DNA from: Amnibacterium flavum
Lineage (GTDB): Bacteria; Actinomycetota; Actinomycetes; Actinomycetales; Microbacteriaceae
Reading direction: 5' to 3'
Assembly (NCBI RefSeq): GCF_003097495.1
Contig: NZ_QEOP01000001.1
Coordinates: 682,001-746,000, forward strand
Length of the DNA: 64,000 nucleotides
The first letter of the stretch is position 1; every line of letters starts with the position of its first letter. This document shows, piece after piece, positions 12,786-23,992 of this stretch. Under the pieces are notes generated by a model, which was not told where the DNA came from, ran no database searches, and saw nothing but the letters and a program-made list of their open reading frames with translations. The position numbers and the translations under genes were made by a program.

Positions 12786-13835
12786 ATGCACGGCGAGTAC
12801 AAGGTGCCCGGAGGCAAGCTCGTGGTCGTCGACCTCGATGTCGTCGAGGGTGTCATCACGAACTTCCGGCTGGCGGGAGACTTCTTCCTCGAACCCGACA
12901 CCGCTCTCGCGGACATCGACGCGGCCGTCAACGGGCTCCCGGTCGATGCCGACGCGCAGCAGATCGCGGCGTCGATCCGGGCGGCCCTGCCGCTGGATGC
13001 CGTGCTGCTCGGCTTCTCGCCCGAGGCCGTCGCGACCGCGATCCGACGTTCGATCGGCAATGCCACGACGTGGCGCGACTACGACTGGAAGATCCTGCAC
13101 CCCGGGCCGCTGAGCCCGCAGATGCATCTCGCCCTCGACCAGGTCCTGACCGAGGAGGTCGGTGCGGGGCGTCGGGGTCCGACGTTGCGCTTCTGGGAGT
13201 GGGAGCAGTCCGCGGTCGTGATCGGCAGCTTCCAGTCGCTGCGCAACGAGGTCGATCTCGAGGGCGCGGCGAAGTTCGGTGTCGACGTGGTCCGCCGGAT
13301 CAGCGGCGGTGGCGCCATGTTCATGGAGGCCGGGTCGGTCGTCACCTATTCGCTCTACGCTCCCGGCGAGCTGGTGCGCGGCATGTCGTTCGCCGAGTCG
13401 TACGCCTACCTCGACGAATGGGCGATCGTCGCGCTGCGCTCGCTCGGCATCGACGCGTTCTACCAACCGCTGAACGACATCTCCTCCGCGAAGGGCAAGA
13501 TCGGCGGGGCCGCCCAGAAGCGTCTCGGCGGGGGAGCCGTGCTCCATCACGTGACGATGAGCTACGACATGGACGGCGACAAGATGGTGCAGGTCCTCCG
13601 CATCGGTCGCGAGAAGCTGAGCGACAAGGGGACGACGAGCGCGGCGAAGCGCGTCGATCCGCTGCGCAGTCAGACCGGCCTGCCGCGTGCCGAGATCATC
13701 GAGCGGATGGAGGGCACGTTCACCTCCCTCTACGGCGCGACCTCGGGGGACATCACGCCCGCGGAGTTCGCCGCTGCGGAGCAGCTCGTGGCCGAGAAGT
13801 TCTCGACCGAGGAGTGGCTCACCCGCGTTCCGTAG
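12786..13835 (+). CDS. Lipoate--protein ligase family protein with N-terminal accessory domain
   Basis: This 349-residue protein carries a short accessory domain at residues 1-90 that resembles the C-terminal domain of LplA-type ligases (starts HGEYKVPGGKLVVVDLDV). A BPL/LplA/LipB catalytic domain follows, with VVRRISGGGAMF (169-179) and the lysine segment KIGGAAQKR (Lys238). The domain order is inverted relative to E. coli LplA. It should attach lipoate or a related acyl group to a lipoyl-domain lysine, but no lipoyl-dependent complex is nearby. The ATG has an AAAGGA ribosome-binding site (12775-12780). A strong hairpin follows the gene. Confidence 0.85.
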   Translation: MHGEYKVPGGKLVVVDLDVVEGVITNFRLAGDFFLEPDTALADIDAAVNGLPVDADAQQIAASIRAALPLDAVLLGFSPEAVATAIRRSIGNATTWRDYDWKILHPGPLSPQMHLALDQVLTEEVGAGRRGPTLRFWEWEQSAVVIGSFQSLRNEVDLEGAAKFGVDVVRRISGGGAMFMEAGSVVTYSLYAPGELVRGMSFAESYAYLDEWAIVALRSLGIDAFYQPLNDISSAKGKIGGAAQKRLGGGAVLHHVTMSYDMDGDKMVQVLRIGREKLSDKGTTSAAKRVDPLRSQTGLPRAEIIERMEGTFTSLYGATSGDITPAEFAAAEQLVAEKFSTEEWLTRVP

Positions 13836-13849
13836 CCGGAAGACGCCGA

Positions 13850-13882
13850 GAGGCCCGGTTCCGCGAGGGAACCGGGCCTCTG
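13850..13882. terminator. Bidirectional hairpin terminator between the lipoate ligase and catalase genes
   Basis: AGAGGCCCGGTTCC (13850-13863) pairs perfectly with GGAACCGGGCCTCT (13869-13882) across a 5-nt loop. The flanking genes converge on it. Confidence 0.8.
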
Positions 13883-13913
13883 CTGTCGGGCCGTCAGGCC
13901 GGGCGATGCTCGA

Positions 13914-15551
<1,638 letters not shown>

Positions 15552-15603
15552 GAAGTCGGATCGTCCTTTCCTCGGGAACCGTCGGCGGTTGCTCGACGGG
15601 GGT

Positions 15604-16044
15604 TCAGGGGGTGGCGGCAGCCGATGCCGCGCAGTCGGGGCAGAGGCCCCAGAAGGTGATCTCGGCCTGGTCGATGACGAATCCTCCGGCCGAGGACGGG
15701 TGGACGCAGGGGGCTTCGCCGACGACGCAGTCGATGTCCTCGGTGCGACCGCAGGAGCGGCAGACCACGTGATGGTGGTTGTCGCCGACCCGGGCCTCGA
15801 AGTGCGCGGGGTGTCCGGCGGGTTGGATGCGTCGGACGAGTTCGGCCTGTTCGAGCGCTGCGAGGCAGTCGTAGACCGCCTGCAGGGAGACGGCGCCGAT
15901 GCGCGCTGCGACCCGATCCGCGATCTCGGTCGCGGTGAGGTGCTCGCTCGCGATCCGGGCGCTCTCGAGGGTGTCGAGCACTGCGACGCGCGGCGCGGTG
16001 GCGCGCAGGTCGGCCTCGCGCAGCCGCGTCGTCGAATCCGCCAT
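15604..16044 (-). CDS. Fur-family peroxide/iron-responsive repressor (FurA/PerR-like)
   Basis: This 146-residue Fur-family metalloregulator has an N-terminal winged helix ([15 protein letters not shown]... [18 protein letters not shown]) and a C-terminal metal-binding part. The latter contains [10 protein letters not shown] and a CPDC pair, the two Cys pairs of a structural zinc site. Position upstream of catalase on the same strand suggests control of the peroxide response, as with mycobacterial FurA-KatG. Two ATGs are adjacent (16047, 16044); the second has the better spacing from AGAGGA and is chosen. A 7-1-7 Fur-type box overlaps the predicted promoter, implying autoregulation. Confidence 0.9.
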
Positions 16045-16061
16045 CATGTCCTCTACCCAGT

Positions 16062-16076
16062 CTTGAATGATTCCAA
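16062..16076. promoter_or_regulatory. Fur/PerR-type 7-1-7 operator upstream of fur-katA
   Basis: CTTGAAT-G-ATTCCAA is an imperfect 7-1-7 inverted repeat (five of seven pairs) of the Fur/PerR type, unusually AT-rich for this genome. It lies just downstream of a TAGTTT element (minus strand, 16075-16080) that could be the -10. Confidence 0.5.
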
Positions 16077-16134
16077 ACTAGCGCAGACTCCGGAGGTTCG
16101 TTCTCAGGGTCGCCGGTCGCGAGGAGGAATGCGG

Positions 16135-16167
16135 AAGGGCCCGGCTCCTTGCGGAGGCCGGGCCCTT
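16135..16167 (-). terminator. Hairpin terminator of the TetR-DHA2 operon
   Basis: AAGGGCCCGGC (16135-16145) pairs perfectly with GCCGGGCCCTT (16157-16167), extended inside by TCC/GGA. It follows the exporter stop on the minus strand. Confidence 0.75.
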
Positions 16168-16184
16168 CGGTGGTGCGGGACGAT

Positions 16185-17852
16185 CTAGACGCTCTGCTTC
16201 TCGTTCTCGTCGACGGTCCGGATCGAGCCGGTGCGCTCTGAGAGGACCGGCTCGACGGTCGGGTTGGCGCCGGCGGCGAGCGACTCGTCGAGCACTTCGG
16301 CTTCGAACGAGATCTCGCCTTCCGTCTTCTCGATGCGGGTGGCGAGAGGCTTCTCGACCACGAACATCAGCAGCACGGCGGCGACGAGGACGAGCGGCAC
16401 CATGTAGAGGAAGATCGGGGTCAGCGCGTCGTTGTAGGCGTCGACGACGATCGTCCGGACCGCGTCGGGCAGGGCCGACACGATCGCCGGGGTGAGCGAG
16501 TTGTTGCCCGTGCCACCCGTTCCGCCCGCGGGCAGGTTGGAGGCGAGGAGGTCGGTGAGGCGCCCGACGAACAGGCTTCCGACGATTGCGGCCCCGAGCG
16601 AGGAGCCGATCTGGCGGAAGAAGTTGTTCGAGCTCGTGGCCGTTCCGACGATCGCGCGAGGGAACGAGTTCTGCACCACGAGGGTGAGGATCTGCATCGA
16701 CATGCCGAGGCCGAAGCCCATGACGGCGAGGAAGGCGCACATGATCCAGATCGCCGTCTCGGCGGTCAGGGTCGAGAGCAGGAACAGGCCCAGCGCGGTG
16801 ACGAACATTCCGACGATCGGGATCAGCTTGTAGCGGCCCGTCTTCGAGACGATCTGACCCGAGCCGATCGAGGAGATGAGGAGTGCGCCCATCATCGGGA
16901 TCATCAGGAGGCCCGCGGAGGTCGCGCCGACTCCGGTGACCATCTGCAGGTAGGTCGGCATGTAGGCGAGGGCGCCGAACATGGCGACACCGGTGATGAG
17001 ACCGGCGCTGGTGGTCAGGTTGAAGTTGCGGTTCTTGAACAGCTTCAACGGGATGACCGGCTCGACCGCGCGGCTCTCGATGAAGACGAACAGGCCCGCG
17101 AACACGACCGTGGCGATGATGAGGCCGATGATGACCGGCGAGTTCCAGTCGTAGGTGTTGCCACCCCAGGTCGTGAAAAGCACGAGGCTGGTTGCAGCCG
17201 CGGCGAGGACGATCATTCCCGGGTAGTCGATGCGCGGCTTGGAGTAGGCGCGCTTGGGCAGCTTCAGGAAGAAGAGGGCCGACACGATCGCGAGGATGCC
17301 GAGTGGGATGTTCATCCAGAACGCCCAGCGCCATCCGGGGCCGTCGGTGAAAAATCCCCCGAGGAGGGGGCCGGCGACGCTGGAGACGGCGAAGACCGCA
17401 CCCATGATGCCGGAGTACTTGCCGCGCTGGCGGGCGGGGACGACGTCGGCGATGATCGCGAGGGCGAGGATCATGAGACCCCCGCCGCCGAGGCCCTGTA
17501 CGGCGCGACCGGCGATGAGGGTCGTCATCGAGTCGGCGAGACCGCCCATGACGCTTCCGACGAGGAAGATCGAGATCGCGATGATGAACAGCCATTTGCG
17601 GCCGATCAAGTCTCCGAGCTTGCCGTAGACGGGCATGACGATGGTCGAGGCGAGGATGTAGGCGGTGGTGACCCAGAGCATGTGCTCGACACCGTTGAGC
17701 TGGCCGACGATCGTCGGCAGCGCGGTGCTGAAGATGGTCTGGTCGAGGGATGCGAGCAGCATCGCGACCATGAGGCCGGCGAAGACGAGCAGTACGCTGC
17801 GGGTCGAGGGGAGGCCCTCGTCCTGCTGCGGCTTCGCTACTGAGGTGGTCAA
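16185..17852 (-). CDS. DHA2-family (EmrB/QacA-type) multidrug exporter
   Basis: This 555-residue major facilitator of the 14-helix drug:H+ antiporter-2 family shows LDQTIFSTALPTIVGQL in helix 1, GKLGDLIGRKWLF (motif A) and [13 protein letters not shown] (helix 4). It should export cationic or amphiphilic compounds through the cytoplasmic membrane. I place the start at a TTG overlapping the upstream TetR stop (TTGA, 17849-17852), with GGAG 8 nt before it; longer upstream readings run inside the regulator gene. It forms a coupled operon with that TetR regulator. A second pair with the same order begins at 62.87 kb. Confidence 0.93.
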   Translation of the reverse strand: MTTSVAKPQQDEGLPSTRSVLLVFAGLMVAMLLASLDQTIFSTALPTIVGQLNGVEHMLWVTTAYILASTIVMPVYGKLGDLIGRKWLFIIAISIFLVGSVMGGLADSMTTLIAGRAVQGLGGGGLMILALAIIADVVPARQRGKYSGIMGAVFAVSSVAGPLLGGFFTDGPGWRWAFWMNIPLGILAIVSALFFLKLPKRAYSKPRIDYPGMIVLAAAATSLVLFTTWGGNTYDWNSPVIIGLIIATVVFAGLFVFIESRAVEPVIPLKLFKNRNFNLTTSAGLITGVAMFGALAYMPTYLQMVTGVGATSAGLLMIPMMGALLISSIGSGQIVSKTGRYKLIPIVGMFVTALGLFLLSTLTAETAIWIMCAFLAVMGFGLGMSMQILTLVVQNSFPRAIVGTATSSNNFFRQIGSSLGAAIVGSLFVGRLTDLLASNLPAGGTGGTGNNSLTPAIVSALPDAVRTIVVDAYNDALTPIFLYMVPLVLVAAVLLMFVVEKPLATRIEKTEGEISFEAEVLDESLAAGANPTVEPVLSERTGSIRTVDENEKQSV

Positions 17853-18508
17853 CTGAGTTTCTCCATTACCGTTCGGAGCGTCGCGATCGCGCGCTCGTAG
17901 ATCTTCCGGGGGTCGGGGGTGTCGGATGATCCGGCCCCCGATCCTGAATGGTCGTGGCCCGCCCATCTGCGCATGCTGATGCGCACGGTGGAGAGGCAGA
18001 TGCCGAGGATGAGTCGCGCCTGTTCGAGACGCTCGGCGTCGGTGTCGTCGGCGAATCGCTCGTCGTCTCGCAGCCAGCCGGCGATGATCTCGCTGAGGCG
18101 GTCTTCGAGGTCGGCGACGCGGGCCATCTGCCGCGTCATCAGCTGCGGGTGCTTGCGGATGACGGCTCGCGACAGCTCTTTGCGCTGCTTGCCGCCGCTC
18201 GCTTCGAAGATCGCGTAGATCAGGTCGAAGACAGCGGCGAGCGGGTCCTCCTGGGTGTCGTGCACCTTGTCGAGTTCGGCGGCGACTGCGCCTTCGTCGA
18301 TGCCGAGCACGGCGTCTTCCTTGGAGGGGAAGTAGTTGAAGAACGTGCGGTTGGACACGTCGGCTCGAGCGCTGATGGCGTCGATGGTCGTCTCGTCGAG
18401 GCCGTTCTCGAGCACGAGCTCGGCGGCCGCGATATGGATGGCCTCAGCGGTTTGAGCGCGCTTGCGCTCGCGCAGACCGAGGCCGCTTGAATCATTCACA
18501 TCACGCAT
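17849..18508 (-). CDS. TetR-family repressor of the DHA2 exporter
   Basis: This 219-residue TetR protein has its helix-turn-helix near residues 20-65 (AAAELVLENGLDETTIDAISARADVSNRTFFNYFPSKEDA is read as helices 1-3). The C-terminal ligand domain is variable. I choose the ATG at 18508 because the alternative TTG at 18535 lies inside the presumed operator. The stop overlaps the exporter start, so both are co-translated and the repressor probably controls its own operon. It resembles the TetR at 62.87 kb in the DNA-recognition helix region (VSNRTFFNYFPSKEDA versus VSRRTFFNYFRTKEDA). The inducer is unknown. Confidence 0.92.
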   Translation of the reverse strand: MRDVNDSSGLGLRERKRAQTAEAIHIAAAELVLENGLDETTIDAISARADVSNRTFFNYFPSKEDAVLGIDEGAVAAELDKVHDTQEDPLAAVFDLIYAIFEASGGKQRKELSRAVIRKHPQLMTRQMARVADLEDRLSEIIAGWLRDDERFADDTDAERLEQARLILGICLSTVRISMRRWAGHDHSGSGAGSSDTPDPRKIYERAIATLRTVMEKLS

Positions 18509-18510
18509 TC

Positions 18511-18558
18511 TTGCACTCTCTGCAAAGTTGCGCAAGCGCAGACATGCAGTCGTGCAAG
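18511..18558. promoter_or_regulatory. Probable TetR operator region with TTGCAC half-sites
   Basis: TTGCA-5 nt-TGCAA (18511-18525) abuts the TetR ATG, TTGCGCAA (18528-18535) is self-complementary, and GTGCAAG recurs at 18552-18558 opposite CTTGCAC at 18510-18516. The same TGCAC half-site is used at the second TetR gene. Confidence 0.5.
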
Positions 18559-18567
18559 GAGAAACGA

Positions 18568-18600
18568 GAACGACCCCGCCTCAGTGAGACGGGGTCGTTC
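18568..18600 (-). terminator. Hairpin terminator of csbD
   Basis: GAACGACCCCG (18568-18578) pairs perfectly with CGGGGTCGTTC (18590-18600), 13 bp beyond the csbD stop. Confidence 0.7.
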
Positions 18601-18613
18601 GGGAGCTGCGGGG

Positions 18614-18787
18614 TCAGTTCTTGAAGTCGTCCTTCACGTCTTCGACCGTGCCGCGGGCCTTGCCCTTGACCTGGTCGGCTTTGCCCTCGGCGACCAGCTT
18701 GTCGTTGTCGGTCACGTTGCCGACCGCTTCCTTCGCCTTGCCGGCGAGTTCCTCAGCGGCGGCCTTGATCTTGTCGGATGCACTCAT
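18614..18787 (-). CDS. csbD: CsbD-family small stress protein
   Basis: This is a 57-residue, highly charged Ala/Lys/Glu/Asp-rich protein of normal CsbD length, with the family pattern DKIKAAAEELAGKAKEAVGN and later GKADQVKGKARGTVEDVKDD. CsbD proteins are induced under general stress in many bacteria; their molecular role is not established. The ATG at 18787 has GGAGA 5 nt upstream, and a longer upstream reading is not supported. It is followed by a strong terminator. Its own promoter should lie in the non-coding stretch to the right, which also borders the lower-GC segment. Confidence 0.88.
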   Translation of the reverse strand: MSASDKIKAAAEELAGKAKEAVGNVTDNDKLVAEGKADQVKGKARGTVEDVKDDFKN

Positions 18788-19171
18788 CGATCTCTCCTCA
18801 TGGACGGGGTGGCGGTCGGCCACCGGACGGTCGGGCGGCCTCGGTTCGGTCGCGTACACGAGTAAGACGTGCGCCCGCCGCCGATCGTCACGCCCGTCCA
18901 GCCAACACACAGGGACCGGACCGGAACACGGGGCGACCTGGTGTCTCGAAACCGTTCCCGCGCCTCCGTTCCGAACATAGGGTTCCGACACGTGGTTTCG
19001 AGAATCACGAACTGCGACGATCCGGTGCGCGGCTATCGACCATTCAGGCAGTGACGAGACGTCTCGTATCACAAGGGTTACGAAACGCTTCGCGCAACGC
19101 GAGCGTTTCGTCATGACTTCGAGTCATCTGCCACTCTGCCCTTGCGAGTGGTCACGTGTCACGGCAATGCC
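18788..19171. other. Non-coding stretch between csbD and the unknown gene of the OLD locus
   Basis: This 384-bp stretch has no convincing gene. It holds the csbD promoter region (not located precisely), a 9-bp inverted repeat CTCGAAACC (18945-18953) / GGTTTCGAG (18994-19002), and three inverted repeats at 19054-19126 listed separately. It marks the left edge of the lower-GC segment. Confidence 0.5.
19054..19126. repeat. Cluster of three inverted repeats at the edge of the low-GC segment
   Basis: ACGAGACGTCTCGT (19054-19067) is a perfect palindrome. CGAAACGCT...GCGTTTCG (19081-19110) forms a 12- to 13-bp stem with one bulge. ATGACT-TCG-AGTCAT (19112-19126) is a small perfect hairpin. They lie just downstream of the minus-strand gene ending at 19172, so one may act as its terminator. 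Confidence 0.5.
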
Positions 19172-20026
19172 TTACAGATCCATCCTCGGAGCGGGGTCAT
19201 TGCCTGGCTTGAAGATCTCGCTTCGAATTGCACGGGAAGCTGCTGATTGATCAATAGTTTCCGGAACTAGCTTCCGAAAGACCTGCACCTGAGAGGTGTT
19301 CGCGTGGAAGGACGATCTCTGGGTCAGTCCCTCAATCACATCGGTAAGAATTTGGATAGCCAGGTTGCCGACGCTGTTCGTGACGCTTACCTCGTCGGGT
19401 GCGTCAAACTGCCAATCGGGCATCACGTCAGCGAGTGGATGATCGGTTTCAGCGCCCCGCGGGATAGGGTTCTTTCCCCTCCCTTTCGGCCCAAACAGTA
19501 CGACGTGTACATGCTCGTTCCCGGGGAAGCAAGCCGTGTTCCAGTTATGCACGGGGAACTGTTGAGGGTGGTTCAGGAGTGCCCGAAACAAGCGGGCGCG
19601 CTCGAGGTCCTGGATGGCGCCGTGAGAAAAACTCGGCCATCGCTTGGGAATCCACTTGATTAGCGACGCATTGTCGGAAAAGTTGCGCTGGAAGATCGAA
19701 CTAAACCGAGCTACAACAGAAGAGAGGTGCGAAAGCGAACTATAGAACGTATCGAAATAGCTCTTAGTTGAGTCGTACAGGTCGTGTTGTTGACCTGTGG
19801 TGGGGATCTGCCAACCAAATGACGTCCCAACTGATCGGGTCATCGGGTCCCGCAGTGCATCGAGCTCGTCCCGCCTTCGAAGAAGGCGACGGTATTCCTC
19901 GATACCGGCAGTAACAGCCAAACGCTCGAATGCGTTGAGGGTCAGCCCGCTGAAGGCCTCGTCCCAAGCGTCCACCAGCCGTGCATTGGCGTACCTAGTT
20001 ATAAGAGGTCGCATCTCATGCGTCAA
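19172..20026 (-). CDS. Unknown protein encoded with an OLD-family nuclease
   Basis: This 284-residue protein was not recognised. It is predicted soluble, with a helical N-terminal half (ARLVDAWDEAFSGLTLNAFERLAVTAG; SYFDTFYSSLSHLSSVVARF), an R-x4-H stretch in RALLNH (Arg148-His153), and a more beta-like C-terminal half with HVHVVLFGPKGRGKNP. R-x4-6-H is the motif of HEPN RNases, but on its own this is weak. The TTG start at 20026 is backed by a strong GGGAGG site 8 nt upstream. The gene lies 73 bp downstream of the OLD-family gene on the same strand, and both have lower GC and different codon use from their neighbours, suggesting joint acquisition. It could be an effector or specificity partner; that is inference. 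Confidence 0.7.
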   Translation of the reverse strand: MTHEMRPLITRYANARLVDAWDEAFSGLTLNAFERLAVTAGIEEYRRLLRRRDELDALRDPMTRSVGTSFGWQIPTTGQQHDLYDSTKSYFDTFYSSLSHLSSVVARFSSIFQRNFSDNASLIKWIPKRWPSFSHGAIQDLERARLFRALLNHPQQFPVHNWNTACFPGNEHVHVVLFGPKGRGKNPIPRGAETDHPLADVMPDWQFDAPDEVSVTNSVGNLAIQILTDVIEGLTQRSSFHANTSQVQVFRKLVPETIDQSAASRAIRSEIFKPGNDPAPRMDL

Positions 20027-20099
20027 TCACCTCACCTCCCGTGATGCTAGAACGTGGCTGCCGGGGTCTCTTAGTCATCGCTGCTACAGATATCTACCG

Positions 20100-22421
20100 C
20101 TAGGCGCGCGCCGGAGACAACATAAGTTCCTTCAGCGCTACTTTGAGACCAGGGAAGTCTTCGACGTTCTCCAGTGGATCAACGGCCAGGTTGAAGTCAT
20201 CGCGGATCTTGCGCGCGGCCGCCCGCACGCTTTCTTCCTCCAGCGAGGCCGAGGTCAGATGGCGCTCGATCTCGCGCAAGAAGCGTTCGACGACGGCCTT
20301 CGAGGCCCGGGTGCGGTGGTCGCGCCGGAACCGTTCTACTAGGCGACGCGTGAGTTGGCGCAGACGCTCCTCGTTTTGATCGCGTAGCGCAAGTGCCTGT
20401 CTGTCGGTGATGAGAGCGAACAATGCGGAAAAGTTCGTAAACATCGTAGGCAGGTCTGGTGCTTTACCCTCCGCGGCGATCGCTCCCACAGCCTTCGCGA
20501 ACTCGATCTTTCCGAAGCTCAGAGGGCGGGTAAGTCCCTCGCTGGCAGTGACCGCCGCTTGTTGAATCTGATCGAACACCCGAGAGCTCTTCTTCGCCAC
20601 CGGTGACTTCGGTAGGGCCTTGATGAAAGCCTCTGCTTCGTCATCCTTGAGCACCTCGCCCGCGAACCAGGCTAGGGCGTCACGAGCTATGGCCGGTGGG
20701 ACCAGGTCCTCCGGTTCCTCGACTGCCGAGACTCCCACGTTCACTGCCTCGGGAGCGAGCGACCCGATTTCAATGATGAGCTGAGAGTCGATGATCGGCT
20801 TGTCGGAGTACCCCTTCTCCAGACCGTCCCGGGCTCGTACGCCTTCGCCATCGGAATCCAGCAGGACGACTACCGCTGGTCGATCGATGTCGCGCCCCAG
20901 CGTGAGGTGGAGCATGTAGCGGTACTGGGTGCCGCCATGGACGGGAACCATCGTGAGGGTATTGAGGTCAATGTTTGCCCCCTTATGGCCGTGCCGTCTC
21001 ATGGCTGCGCTAACTCCAGAGAACAACACAAGATCGGCGGGCCCCTCAACGAGGAGATTGCATGATCCAATGAACGCCGTGTCGGCGTGGAAGGAGCCGA
21101 AAGCTGAGCGGAGAGGTTCGTACTTGTCCACGGCGACTTTCGCAACGACCCGCGTCCCCTCCTCTCCGTAGCCCTTCTCGAGCACCCGAATGCGCTCGGG
21201 ATGGTTGCGATCGATGAGGAAGGGGCTGTGAGTTACGTAGAGCACCTGCGCCGCTTGAGTGCCGTCTTCGGGAACCGCATAGGCCTTCAGTACGCGTAGT
21301 AGGTCTTGCTGCCCTTCCGTGGACAGAAAGGCGTCGGGCTCATCCATCAGCACGATCTCGTCCTGCCCGAGGACAAGGGGCCCGTAGGAGCGATGTTGCA
21401 CGAAGTAGCTCAGGAAGTATTTCATTCCCCCGCTGCGCTCGTTGAAGGTGTAGCGCTGACCCGTGCGATCTCTCATAGTGAGGACGAGGAAGAAGCCGTC
21501 TTTGTGGACTTCGAGGGCGAAGTCACGGTCCTGGGACCACCACTGAGGGAAGTTCAAGGAGTCAGCTATTGCTTGGCTCATGCTTTCTGTGATGGCGGCG
21601 CTGTAACCGTCATCGGAGTCGCTAGCGTCAAGCAGTTGCTGGAATGCCTCTGGGTCGACGTCTGCCACGTCTATGAGCAGGTCTCGCATTAGTTTGAGGG
21701 AGGCCGCTGCCGCGTCTTCGTCTCTTGGGTCGCGCATCGGTTGCGGCATGAAGTAAGAGGTGACTGGGACCGCGCCTGCCTCGAGCTGCGCTTCATCCCG
21801 CTTGAGTGAAGTGTGGATGCCTGACCAGGCTCCTCGGTCCCGCGGGTGAGGAACGGAGAGGTTTTGGACGAGGTCGAAGAGGCTGACGCTCGCCGGCAGT
21901 GCCACCTGGGATCGGATGAGTCGCGATTTGGGTAGGCCTAGCTGTCGGATGGTGTCCTCGGAGACATTTTGAGAGACGTAGCCGGCTTCACCCTTGGTCC
22001 AAATGGTGTTGATGTTCCCGAGCCGGAACAGCCAGAACGTTGTTACGTTATCTACCCCGAGCAAGGACGCAAACGTGGCTGATTCGTTGCTCCGCAACTC
22101 CGAGAACTGGCCGCCGAATTGCGGTAAGGGCATGACTCCCCGCACGCCGAAAAAGGTCGAGTATCGACAGAAATCTTTTGGAGAGATGGGTGCGTCTCCA
22201 AGCAGACAACGAATGGCGGTGATGAGCTGACTCTTACCGGACTCGTTGGCGCCCACGATGGTGGTGACCTCGCGTTCGATGTCTACCTCGACGAACGGGT
22301 AGTAGGAGTCGGGATCACCGGCGGAGTCCCAGGGACGCGGTTCCGTCTGCTCTTTTTCTAAGCGGAGGTAATCGAAGTTGAACGAGCGAAAGTGCCGGAC
22401 ATAGATCTTCCTTAGCTTCAC
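20100..22421 (-). CDS. OLD-family ATP-dependent endonuclease (AAA ATPase + TOPRIM)
   Basis: This 773-residue protein starts at a GTG with GGGAG 5 nt upstream; longer upstream readings use a TTG without support. It has an SMC/RecF-like ATPase split by an insert: Walker A GANESGKS (57-64), the ABC-like signature ERSGGMKYF (near 329), Walker B EIVLMDEPD (355-363) and the THSPFL switch (about 397). A TOPRIM nuclease domain follows, with VEGPADLVLFSG (Glu459) and LLDSDGEG (Asp522, Asp524). This is the OLD architecture used in phage-defence systems such as Gabija, but here the partner is not a helicase. A further roughly 200-residue C-terminal region is unassigned. GC is visibly lower than in flanking genes. 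Nuclease and defence roles are inferred from the family. Confidence 0.9.
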   Translation of the reverse strand: MKLRKIYVRHFRSFNFDYLRLEKEQTEPRPWDSAGDPDSYYPFVEVDIEREVTTIVGANESGKSQLITAIRCLLGDAPISPKDFCRYSTFFGVRGVMPLPQFGGQFSELRSNESATFASLLGVDNVTTFWLFRLGNINTIWTKGEAGYVSQNVSEDTIRQLGLPKSRLIRSQVALPASVSLFDLVQNLSVPHPRDRGAWSGIHTSLKRDEAQLEAGAVPVTSYFMPQPMRDPRDEDAAAASLKLMRDLLIDVADVDPEAFQQLLDASDSDDGYSAAITESMSQAIADSLNFPQWWSQDRDFALEVHKDGFFLVLTMRDRTGQRYTFNERSGGMKYFLSYFVQHRSYGPLVLGQDEIVLMDEPDAFLSTEGQQDLLRVLKAYAVPEDGTQAAQVLYVTHSPFLIDRNHPERIRVLEKGYGEEGTRVVAKVAVDKYEPLRSAFGSFHADTAFIGSCNLLVEGPADLVLFSGVSAAMRRHGHKGANIDLNTLTMVPVHGGTQYRYMLHLTLGRDIDRPAVVVLLDSDGEGVRARDGLEKGYSDKPIIDSQLIIEIGSLAPEAVNVGVSAVEEPEDLVPPAIARDALAWFAGEVLKDDEAEAFIKALPKSPVAKKSSRVFDQIQQAAVTASEGLTRPLSFGKIEFAKAVGAIAAEGKAPDLPTMFTNFSALFALITDRQALALRDQNEERLRQLTRRLVERFRRDHRTRASKAVVERFLREIERHLTSASLEEESVRAAARKIRDDFNLAVDPLENVEDFPGLKVALKELMLSPARA

Positions 22422-22969
22422 TGCTTCTCCCTCTGGTTGCCCAGAACCTAGCCGATACATGCGACATACGCGCGGGCTGAGAGCCCTAAGGAGGGGGATA
22501 GCGTCGTCGCGCAGGTCTACGGACAGCTCTGTCAGCGGTTCACCCAAGCCGCCGATAGCGACGAGACCTCGCCGAACCGCTCAACGCGGCCGCCCTCCAG
22601 CAGGCATCCATGAATTGCTGCCTGAGCGCCGGAGTGTTCAGACGGCTCGTGGCCCCACCAGTGGCCTGCTGTTCCGCAGACCCGCCCACAACCGGCCCAA
22701 CGACCTGGTTGCCTACACGTGCCGCGGAAGACATCCTCCGCTGGCACCGGTTCCCGCAGCAATCAGTGGCACAGCTGAGAGTAGTCGGAGACTCAGCCGT
22801 TGAGGTGAACTGACATAATCCGTGTTATGGGGCGGATCGGTTGGCATTGCCGGCAGGCCAGGTTCGGAATCTGACCCTGCACCGAGATCGCCGCCCGCCT
22901 CTCATCCTCATCGGTATGCCCCACGGCGGTGCTCTTGTCTCGCTCCCTACGGAACGGGCTAATAGGCCC
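22422..22969. other. Non-coding stretch upstream of the OLD gene
   Basis: These 548 bp lie between the OLD start and the LacI stop. A possible -10 (TAGGTT, minus strand, 22445-22450) lies 24 nt before the OLD GTG. Short open frames occur on both strands (for example 22540-22734 minus, 64 codons), but none has a well-placed ribosome-binding site or a recognisable product; they may be remnants. It contains the right edge of the lower-GC segment. Confidence 0.4.
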
Positions 22970-23992
22970 TCAGGCGACGGTGGAGCCGCGGACGATCAGC
23001 GCTGTCGGCATGATCGTGACCCGCTCGACGGGCTCGCCCGCGAGGAGGCGGACCAGCACCTCGGCCATCTTCTCACCGAGCCCGGTCGAGGGCTGGACGA
23101 CGGTGGTCAGGGGCGGCTCGCTCGTCTCGCCGAAGTAGTCGCCGTCGAATCCGGCCACCGCGATGGTGCCGGGAACACTGACACCCCGCTCGCGCAGCGC
23201 CGAAAGCGCCCCCGCGGCCATCTGATCGTTCGAGGCGAAGACCGCGTCGATCGGTCGCCCCGAATCGAGCAGGCGGCGCATGGCCTCCGCCCCCTGGCGC
23301 GGCGAGAAGTCGCCCTGCTCGACGAGGCTCGAATCGAGCCCGGCGTCGGACATCGCCCCGCGCCAACCCGCCAGGCGATCCGCGCCGGCCGGCATGTCCT
23401 GGCGACCGGCGATCATCGCGATGTTCTTGCGGCCCAGGTCGATGAGGTGCTGGGTGACCGTGCGCGCCGAGCCGATGTTGTCGACGTCGACGAAGTAGCT
23501 GTCGCTCTCGCTCGCGCTCAGCGGTCGCCCGCCGAACACCACGGGCAGGGTGAGACCGAGATGCGCATACGAGTGGTCGCCGGAGTGGTGGGAGACGACG
23601 AGTGCGCCGTCGACATTGCCGCCCAGCAGGTACCGCCGCGTCTTCTCGGGGGCCGCCTCCGATGCGATGACCATGTTGAGCGTGTACTCGGTCTCGGCGA
23701 GACGCAGCGCGACACCCTGGACGACCGAGGCGAAGAACGGGTCGGCGAAGACCTTCGCCGTCGACTCGGGAACGACGAGCGCGATGACCTGGGTCTTGCG
23801 GCTCGCGAGCGATCGAGCAGCACGGTTGGGCACGTATCCGAGCTTGTCGATCGCGACTTGAACCGCAGCGACGGCGTCGGCCTTCACATGCGGCGAGTTG
23901 TTCACCACGCGGCTGACCGTCGAACGAGAAACCCCCGCCAGTGCGGCGACTTCCTCGAGCGTCGGTGCACCCTGCATTGGGTCGCTGATCAT
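22970..23992 (-). CDS. LacI-family repressor of the beta-glucoside operon
   Basis: This 340-residue LacI/GalR protein has an N-terminal helix-turn-helix (PTLEEVAALAGVSRSTVSRVVNN, residues 9-31) and hinge (GYVPNRAARSLASRKT). A periplasmic-binding-protein-like sugar sensor domain follows, with DAVFASNDQMAAGAL and IAVAGFDGDYF. The ATG has AGGAGAT 4 nt upstream. It lies 27 bp after the GH1 gene and is the last gene of the ABC transporter operon. Two perfect GAGCGCTC-centred palindromes flanking the operon promoter are its likely operators, and a glucoside or its hydrolysis product the likely inducer. Confidence 0.93.
   Translation of the reverse strand: MISDPMQGAPTLEEVAALAGVSRSTVSRVVNNSPHVKADAVAAVQVAIDKLGYVPNRAARSLASRKTQVIALVVPESTAKVFADPFFASVVQGVALRLAETEYTLNMVIASEAAPEKTRRYLLGGNVDGALVVSHHSGDHSYAHLGLTLPVVFGGRPLSASESDSYFVDVDNIGSARTVTQHLIDLGRKNIAMIAGRQDMPAGADRLAGWRGAMSDAGLDSSLVEQGDFSPRQGAEAMRRLLDSGRPIDAVFASNDQMAAGALSALRERGVSVPGTIAVAGFDGDYFGETSEPPLTTVVQPSTGLGEKMAEVLVRLLAGEPVERVTIMPTALIVRGSTVA

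Follow-up and report, generated by a model that had tools for sequence, protein, structure and literature searches.

Two genes of unusually low GC content lie side by side on the minus strand of a 64,000-nucleotide stretch of Amnibacterium flavum DNA (the window; contig NZ_QEOP01000001.1, positions 682,001 to 746,000). The upstream gene encodes an OLD-family protein that joins an ABC-type ATPase to a TOPRIM domain, while the downstream gene, here called the partner, encodes a protein of 284 residues (Table 1).

Table 1 Features of the OLD–partner locus, with positions counted from the first letter of the window. Fractions give the share of aligned sequences; Ts OLD is Thermus scotoductus OLD.
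Feature	Position	Strand	Remarks
Variable block, 9.1 kb	13834..22968		Catalase, Fur, MFS, TetR, CsbD, partner and OLD genes (named by Pfam)
Partner gene; its 284-aa product falls in an uncatalogued HEPN-like family with mobile-looking settings	19172..20026	-	Intact; TTG start at 20026
R148-x4-H153, HEPN-type catalytic motif, partner	19568..19585	-	Invariant 7/7
E43-x3-R47, second HEPN-type motif, partner	19886..19900	-	Kept 6/7; D and Q in the seventh
Gap between OLD and partner	20027..20099		73 bp; holds the likely partner ribosome-binding site
OLD-family ATPase/TOPRIM gene	20100..22421	-	773 aa, intact; GTG start at 22421
E571, candidate metal-B ligand, OLD	20709..20711	-	Invariant 10/10; 47 residues after D524
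TOPRIM D522-x-D524, OLD	20850..20858	-	Invariant 10/10; like Ts OLD D431/D433 (PMC7049728)
TOPRIM E459 ... D463, OLD	21033..21047	-	Invariant 10/10; spacing like Ts OLD E377/D381 (PMC7049728)
Walker B D360-E361, OLD	21339..21344	-	Invariant 10/10
ABC signature S330-G331-G332, OLD	21426..21434	-	S330, G332 invariant 10/10; G331 variable
Walker A GANESGKS, OLD residues 57-64	22230..22253	-	G57, K63, S64 invariant 10/10

An earlier note on this DNA had described an intact AAA/TOPRIM protein at this position, and the reading frame and named motif residues are indeed complete. The start codon is preceded by GGAG 5 bases upstream, M1 aligns with the homologues, and the H loop (H398) is present in addition to the motifs listed above. 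In an alignment of 10 sequences (window protein included; 767–851 aa, some starts being set by our own gene calling), all residues checked are invariant except G331. Pfam matches to AAA_15 (7.3e-11) and AAA_21 (5.2e-9), the PADLOC Old profile (6.7e-11, one of many related profiles matched) and the solved OLD-family endonuclease 6p74 (5.1e-9, the best matched stretch covering profile positions 345–464 only) support the OLD-family assignment, and the Pfam OLD-like_TOPRIM profile scored 15.2 bits, below its cut-off of 23.2 bits. Judged by spacing, the acidic residues may be paired with the metal ligands of Ts OLD, in which E480 follows D433 by the same 47 residues that separate E571 from D524 here (PMC7049728); the position of Ts OLD S478 is occupied by E569 rather than serine. 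The gene probably encodes an anti-phage OLD nuclease.

The partner gene is likewise intact and well initiated, as had been claimed, with a likely ribosome-binding site (GGGAGG, 20035–20040) 8 bases upstream of its TTG codon. It had been said to hold no recognised domain, and profile searches bear this out, as no family in Pfam, NCBIfam, PADLOC or PHROGs matched. A Pfam search with all seven known members at E values up to 1 returned four families, none of them HEPN, and weak matches to Prok-TraM, T7 gp5.9, a RecBCD-inhibitor PHROG and others (E 0.045–0.3), each from a single member, were attributed to chance. Nor did solved structures offer a credible match (best E 0.11). Including the window protein, the family comprises seven homologues, the six others being 24–46% identical to it. 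Profile scans of viral contigs and tblastn against phages revealed no relative, plasmid searches with the homologues returned a Miniimonas plasmid only, and of two scans of genome contigs, the first found none and the second two loci, both already among those known.

The partner family, a small one from Micrococcales, is found mostly in mobile-looking settings. One homologue adjoins a phage integrase (genome G014; Pfam 73.5 bits), another lies among phage-like genes of Leucobacter musarum (by eye), and the Miniimonas plasmid carries a MobF relaxase near its copy, while in G036 dapD- and dapE-like genes, identified by eye, flank the homologue. In G349, the homologue is found beside an integrase-like ORF scoring below Pfam cut-offs and 157 bp upstream of a co-oriented SMC-like ATPase gene; this ATPase is of another subfamily than OLD, and the gene order is reversed relative to the window. 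Restriction genes are found near members of the OLD subfamily on a Deinococcus plasmid and, judged by eye, in G600 and G684.

The earlier note had taken an R-x4-H stretch in the partner, whose numbering (R148/H153) is correct, as a hint of a HEPN-like RNase. HEPN proteins are defined by R-x4-6-H, typically with N, D or H right after the arginine, and by an upstream acidic residue, typically within E-x3-[KR] (PMC3710099). A lone R/H pair at spacing 4–6 is uninformative, because 93% of 10,000 shuffles of the window partner protein contain one; the R148/H153 pair counts because it is invariant in all seven homologues despite their divergence. No other R/H pair with a spacing of 4 to 6 is invariant in the alignment, and E43/R47 is the sole E/[KR] pair at its spacing kept in at least six of the seven. 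When alignment columns were shuffled 10,000 times, an invariant R/H pair arose in 431 cases, an E-x3-[KR] pair conserved to the same degree as E43/R47 in 316 and both motifs in six, such shuffles being the sole control for the motifs. The residue after R148 is alanine in the window protein (A, A, T, T, N, N and A across the seven), which is no strict bar to HEPN membership, since the source describes the polar residue as typical (PMC3710099). None of the seven members matched a HEPN profile in Pfam, and the AbiU2 HEPN profile found nothing at E<=0.001 in the window's genome (G000) or in G014, both of which hold partner members. Across 60 relatives, the same profile matched once, in G643, below the family cut-off.

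It could be argued that the partner is no RNase but serves counter-defence, immunity or regulation, with R-x4-H as a structural feature. The absence of a match to any HEPN family profile, the alanine after R148, a crude propensity estimate that places two beta-like stretches beyond residue 170, and the occurrence of each motif alone in 3–4% of column shuffles would fit such a role. However, the two motifs coincided in only six of the 10,000 column shuffles, and around both of them the same crude estimate gives a larger moment for helix than for strand, so that we regard a non-RNase partner as rather unlikely. On its motifs, the partner is probably a HEPN-type RNase, for which both the fold and the activity are predicted.

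Both genes had been described as lower in GC than all their neighbours, and this is the case, the partner having 55.6% and the OLD gene 59.6% vs 62.6–72.1% in nine neighbours; at third codon positions, the values are 63.0% and 71.5% vs 83.6–93.0%. The OLD-family nuclease is thus found in compositionally atypical DNA, as proposed. To call the flanking genes ordinary chromosomal ones is correct only in part, because the catalase, Fur, MFS, TetR and CsbD genes belong to a block that is missing from genus relatives. At this site, no blastn piece of the block longer than 150 bases was found in any of the seven relatives compared (of eight genus relatives), a comparison confined to the site itself. 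In G132 (locus L024), the block flanks are 11 bases apart. The variable spot has a lipoate-ligase-like gene on one side and a LacI regulator on the other, and within 13780–23050 no convincing repeats were seen at the block ends. A recent gain is presumed. One might instead see a degrading island with one or both genes as relics under no selection, given that within the genus they occur in this genome only and show atypical codon use; yet both frames are intact and their motif residues kept, making this a most improbable account.

With a common strand, a 73-bp gap and a shared richness in AT, the two genes could form one operon and may be transcribed jointly in this strain. A promoter scan of 18500–23000 is uninformative on this point, as it found no site anywhere in that range, with 0.8 expected by chance. 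The earlier note had gone further and proposed a two-gene defence system, for which conserved co-occurrence would be expected across genomes. The loci and genomes searched did not bear this out. No match at E<0.1 was obtained with the partner profile in the DNA flanking 10 other OLD-subfamily loci, two of them near-identical Rhodococcus plasmids, or with the OLD profile in that flanking six distinct partner loci. Flanks measured at most 1.5 kb at L033 and L036, and L012/L022 ended 0.6 kb beyond the partner. In surveys of 398 genomes of the family, the partner occurred in six (E<=0.001) and OLD in three (E<=1e-30), the window's genome being the sole one positive for both; in the class, 6/394 genomes matched the OLD profile (E<=1e-60) and 1/394 the partner profile (E<=0.001), both counts including the window's genome. 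Within the genus, the partner is present in one of nine genomes.

In a genuine two-gene system, the ATPase and C-terminal region of OLD would serve to sense phage, and OLD would govern the HEPN-like partner, which would act as the RNase effector, much as the OLD-type ABC ATPases of PARIS and WonAB do with their separate nucleases. Besides the shared strand, short gap and low GC, this would agree with described pairs of OLD-ABC ATPases with TOPRIM, HNH, PD-(D/E)XK or PIN nucleases (PMC12839542), with the predicted binding of WonB to C-terminal extensions of WonA (PMC12137116), and with the SMC-like ATPase beside the partner homologue in G349. Against it, the genes did not co-occur at the 10 OLD and six partner loci, and OLD is already equipped with the acidic TOPRIM residues for a nuclease of its own, leaving such a system improbable. 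Because OLD and partner were not found together in any other genome searched, chance neighbours are likelier than a new two-gene immune system.

The likely explanation is therefore that two independently mobile genes came to adjoin by chance in a variable chromosomal spot, with OLD acting alone and the RNase-like partner being solitary. The Class-1-type OLD would most likely work by itself, its ABC-type ATPase sensing an infection-linked signal and licensing a two-metal TOPRIM nuclease, which may then cut nucleic acid (DNA or tRNA) so that the phage is restricted or the infection aborted. Cutting of tRNA has been reported for P2 Old. The partner, solitary and probably an RNase of the HEPN type that travels on mobile elements of Micrococcales, would most likely cut RNA and thereby exclude or abort incoming phages or protect its element. 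Since the partner family is rare, a young pairing might be present in further genomes. It could be speculated, as a long shot, that the partner represents a hitherto undescribed group of solitary RNases of the HEPN type, spread by prophages, plasmids and integrase elements of Micrococcales, whose members have come to rest next to ATPase genes on two or more occasions (OLD here, SMC-like in G349). In this strain, the two genes would then make up a young OLD–HEPN operon, with the RNase being activated by the OLD ATPase. No OLD–HEPN dyad was seen in the literature surveyed, in which OLD-ABC ATPases are described with HNH, PD-(D/E)XK and PIN nucleases (PMC12839542).

Compared with known systems, the arrangement of an ABC ATPase beside a second gene recalls PARIS, Septu, WonAB and other pairs of OLD-ABC ATPases and nucleases, which were rejected as the TOPRIM domain is fused to the ATPase here and no OLD homologue had the second gene in the flanks searched. 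GajA profiles of Gabija (GajA/GajB, Class 2 OLD) match the window ATPase (best 2e-10), but no UvrD-like helicase adjoins it, its neighbours being the 284-residue protein, without a helicase match, and the LacI regulator. The retron type (Class 3 OLD) was rejected as well, with no reverse transcriptase in the partner or eight neighbour genes scanned and no retron RNA, Rfam at its gathering threshold returning two tRNAs only across the whole window. HEPN RNases such as AbiU2, ApeA and PrrC/RloC share the R-x4-H and E-x3-R motifs and mobile-looking settings with the partner, whereas the latter lacks a profile match, carries A or T after the arginine in five of seven members and is not fused to an ATPase. 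The closest likeness of the OLD protein is to Class 1 OLD (P2 Old, Ts OLD and E. coli YbjD/OldB), which combine an N-terminal ABC ATPase with a C-terminal TOPRIM domain bearing acidic metal-binding residues, as is the case here with all five such residues invariant. Its homologues also occur without a fixed partner, in that homologues of the 284-residue protein, the only ones sought, were absent from the flanks of the 10 other OLD loci, while at the window locus itself a co-oriented gene adjoins OLD. In size, the window protein and its homologues exceed the 528-residue solved Ts OLD chain, and ~200 residues without a known domain follow E571, the last TOPRIM acidic residue, compared with ~48 after E480 in Ts OLD. 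A Class-1-type OLD, encoded by a single gene and endowed with a long C-terminal region, is the best reading of the protein.

Whether the OLD-type ATPase/TOPRIM gene and its adjoining partner gene (Table) form a two-gene defence system, as an earlier note had proposed, was examined by their pairing in other genomes, and this reading is not supported. The partner was found at 0/10 OLD loci and OLD at 0/6 partner loci, with no match below E 0.1 for the partner profile in the flanks of the former or for the OLD profile at the latter (flanks of at most 1.5 kb at loci L033 and L036; a Leucobacter musarum contig stopping ~0.6 kb past the partner). Each profile recovered its own gene at every locus, a control that is partly built in, as six of the partner loci and five of the OLD loci contributed rows to the profiles. 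The ten OLD loci comprised G165, G205, two near-identical Rhodococcus plasmids, one Deinococcus plasmid, and five class-sample genomes. The partner and OLD surveys apparently covered the same 398 family genomes, judged by their handles, and found the two together only in the window's own genome, G000. Partner-positive genomes were G000, G014, G036, G253 (L. musarum), G344 (Cryobacterium suzukii), and G349, and OLD-positive genomes were G000, G165, and G205; because G000 alone is common to both lists, the pairing is documented in a single genome. The strongest argument for a pair comes from G349: a partner homologue there lies 157 bp upstream of, and on the same strand as, an ATPase gene whose SMC-like product has 627 aa (AAA_21, 7.5e-11), yet this ATPase is not the window's OLD. 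The SMC-like ATPase gene, a GHKL ATPase-like gene, and a gene for a receiver plus phosphotransferase-like protein follow one another there (L010:5276-9408), beside the partner homologue and an integrase-like ORF, and this three-gene row is possibly a defence or signalling cassette.

Table. Positions in the window of the gene pair and its surroundings.
Feature	Position	Strand	Observation
Block between lipoate-ligase-like gene and LacI gene	13834-22968		9.1 kb
Partner protein, 284 aa	19172-20026	-	Intact frame
OLD-type protein, 773 aa	20100-22421	-	Intact frame
LacI gene	22970-23992		Match at E<=1e-40 in 9/9 genus genomes, the window's included

Reading frames, GC content, third-position GC, and a codon model confirm the earlier description of two real, intact genes of low GC. 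Separated by 73 bp, OLD and partner have a GC content of 59.6% and 55.6%, and a third-position GC of 71.5% and 63.0%, respectively, against 83.6-93.0% for nine other measured genes. Only these two of 11 genes scored below 0 in the codon model, whose training set of five host genes shares four with the eleven scored. The 1-kb windows starting at 19000-21500 averaged 58.9% GC, compared with a background of 68.5% (SD 2.1; 232 1-kb windows with starts outside 18000-23000). The window's own OLD match in the class-sample search shows one internal stop, and its listed span includes the gene's own TAG at 20100. Six partner homologues (51.7-59.6% GC) and four OLD homologues (55.1-59.5%) each fall below the mean of their fetched surroundings (60.4-69.1%; L002-L007, L019, L020, L038, L039). 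As homologues elsewhere share this property, low GC may be a trait of both families and not a sign of shared origin.

The stretch beside LacI was compared in 7/8 other genus genomes (G364 left out), none of which gave blastn pieces >150 bases within the block. In G132 (L024), the two flanks of the block are 11 bases apart, and gene calling and inspection by eye placed a ~95-aa acetyltransferase-like gene at the spot in G308 and G232, such a gene plus further genes in G068 and G273, a short gap in G338, and 11.5 kb of mostly metabolic genes in G185. Since the cargo thus varies among genus members (L024-L030), the spot looks like a variable insertion site. Searches of nine genus genomes with the partner profile and with the block's TetR protein each matched the window's own only. 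The block also carries catalase, Fur, MFS, TetR, and CsbD genes, and because their GC is host-like, it may have been assembled in more than one step; no convincing end repeats were found in a search of the block.

The OLD protein matched AAA_15 and AAA_21 above the Pfam cut-offs and OLD-like_TOPRIM below it (15.2 bits; cut-off 23.2). In PADLOC, 89 profiles matched at E<=10, and the best of 25 listed were mad3, AriA, Old, and GajA (1.9e-12 to 2e-10), matches that by similarity identify an OLD/RecF-like ABC ATPase and nothing finer. A six-sequence OLD profile matched the solved OLD protein 6p74 (5.1e-9). Across the window's protein and nine homologues (34-99% pairwise identity; a truncated G684 copy left out), the checked Walker A, signature, Walker B, D-loop, H-loop, and five TOPRIM acidic residues were invariant in 10/10. 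By spacing, these acidic residues correspond to E377, D381, D431, D433, and E480 of Thermus scotoductus OLD, whereas the place equivalent to its S478 is not a serine (residues as described in an excerpt of PMC7049728). Near OLD-subfamily homologues lie genes for type I restriction or for DNA methylases, annotated as such at L017 and recognised by eye at L036, L038, and L040.

Profile searches assigned the partner to no catalogued family, with no match of useful score in Pfam, NCBIfam, PADLOC, or PHROGs. Homologues were found in 5/397 other family genomes, including those of L. musarum and C. suzukii, both Microbacteriaceae, and in one of 72,556 plasmid records, from Miniimonas of the same order; there were none among 393 other class-sample genomes, in phage records, or in four viral-contig scans. 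Their neighbours differ at every locus: an integrase-like ORF below Pfam cut-offs and the SMC-like ATPase in G349, an integrase in G014, a MobF relaxase on the Miniimonas plasmid, and, by eye, phage-like genes in L. musarum, restriction-helicase pieces, IS21-like genes, and a TIR-like gene in C. suzukii, and dapD/dapE-like genes in G036. A by-eye impression of a RES toxin and antitoxin near the G036 homologue was unsupported by Pfam and PADLOC. Another gene nearby (L008:6448-7119) matched the defence-related PADLOC profiles capP and RmrA. The partner family is small and uncatalogued, and constitutes the mildly new part of the locus.

R148-x4-H153 is invariant in 7/7 partner homologues, and no other R/H pair spaced 4 to 6 apart is. 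A superfamily review, seen in excerpt, names two HEPN motifs (PMC3710099), and the E-x3-R motif sought accordingly was found as E43-x3-R47 in 6/7 homologues, the sole E/[KR] pair at its spacing in at least six. Among 10,000 column shuffles of the alignment, an invariant R/H pair arose in 431, an E/[KR] pair kept in at least six sequences in 316, and both in 6; each motif alone is modest evidence, and both together are unlikely to arise by chance. By crude multi-sequence propensities, the helical moment exceeds the strand moment at both motifs, and residues near 172-182 look beta-like, although several stretches in mid-protein also score beta-like by propensity. According to the same excerpt, HEPN proteins typically carry N, D, or H directly behind the R, whereas the homologues have A, A, T, T, N, N, and A. 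The partner is best described as HEPN-like, judging from these motifs, and not as HEPN outright.

OLD-type ATPases with separate nucleases exist, according to excerpts of PMC12839542 and PMC12137116, so a young pairing of OLD and partner in this strain would be possible but is unsupported. The separate-action reading is favoured for OLD because, in the excerpts seen, the definition of a Class 1 OLD is one gene that combines ATPase and TOPRIM (PMC10568477), the isolated Class 1 OLD YbjD of E. coli is anti-phage on induced expression, and P2 Old is reported to cut host tRNA (both PMC13261556). OLD would then act alone, its ATPase gating a putative TOPRIM nuclease, and the partner would be a lone RNase carried by mobile elements. 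The TOPRIM domain may not always be important, as it was dispensable in YbjD (PMC13261556). An OLD protein beside a HEPN-like mobile gene is ordinary in kind.
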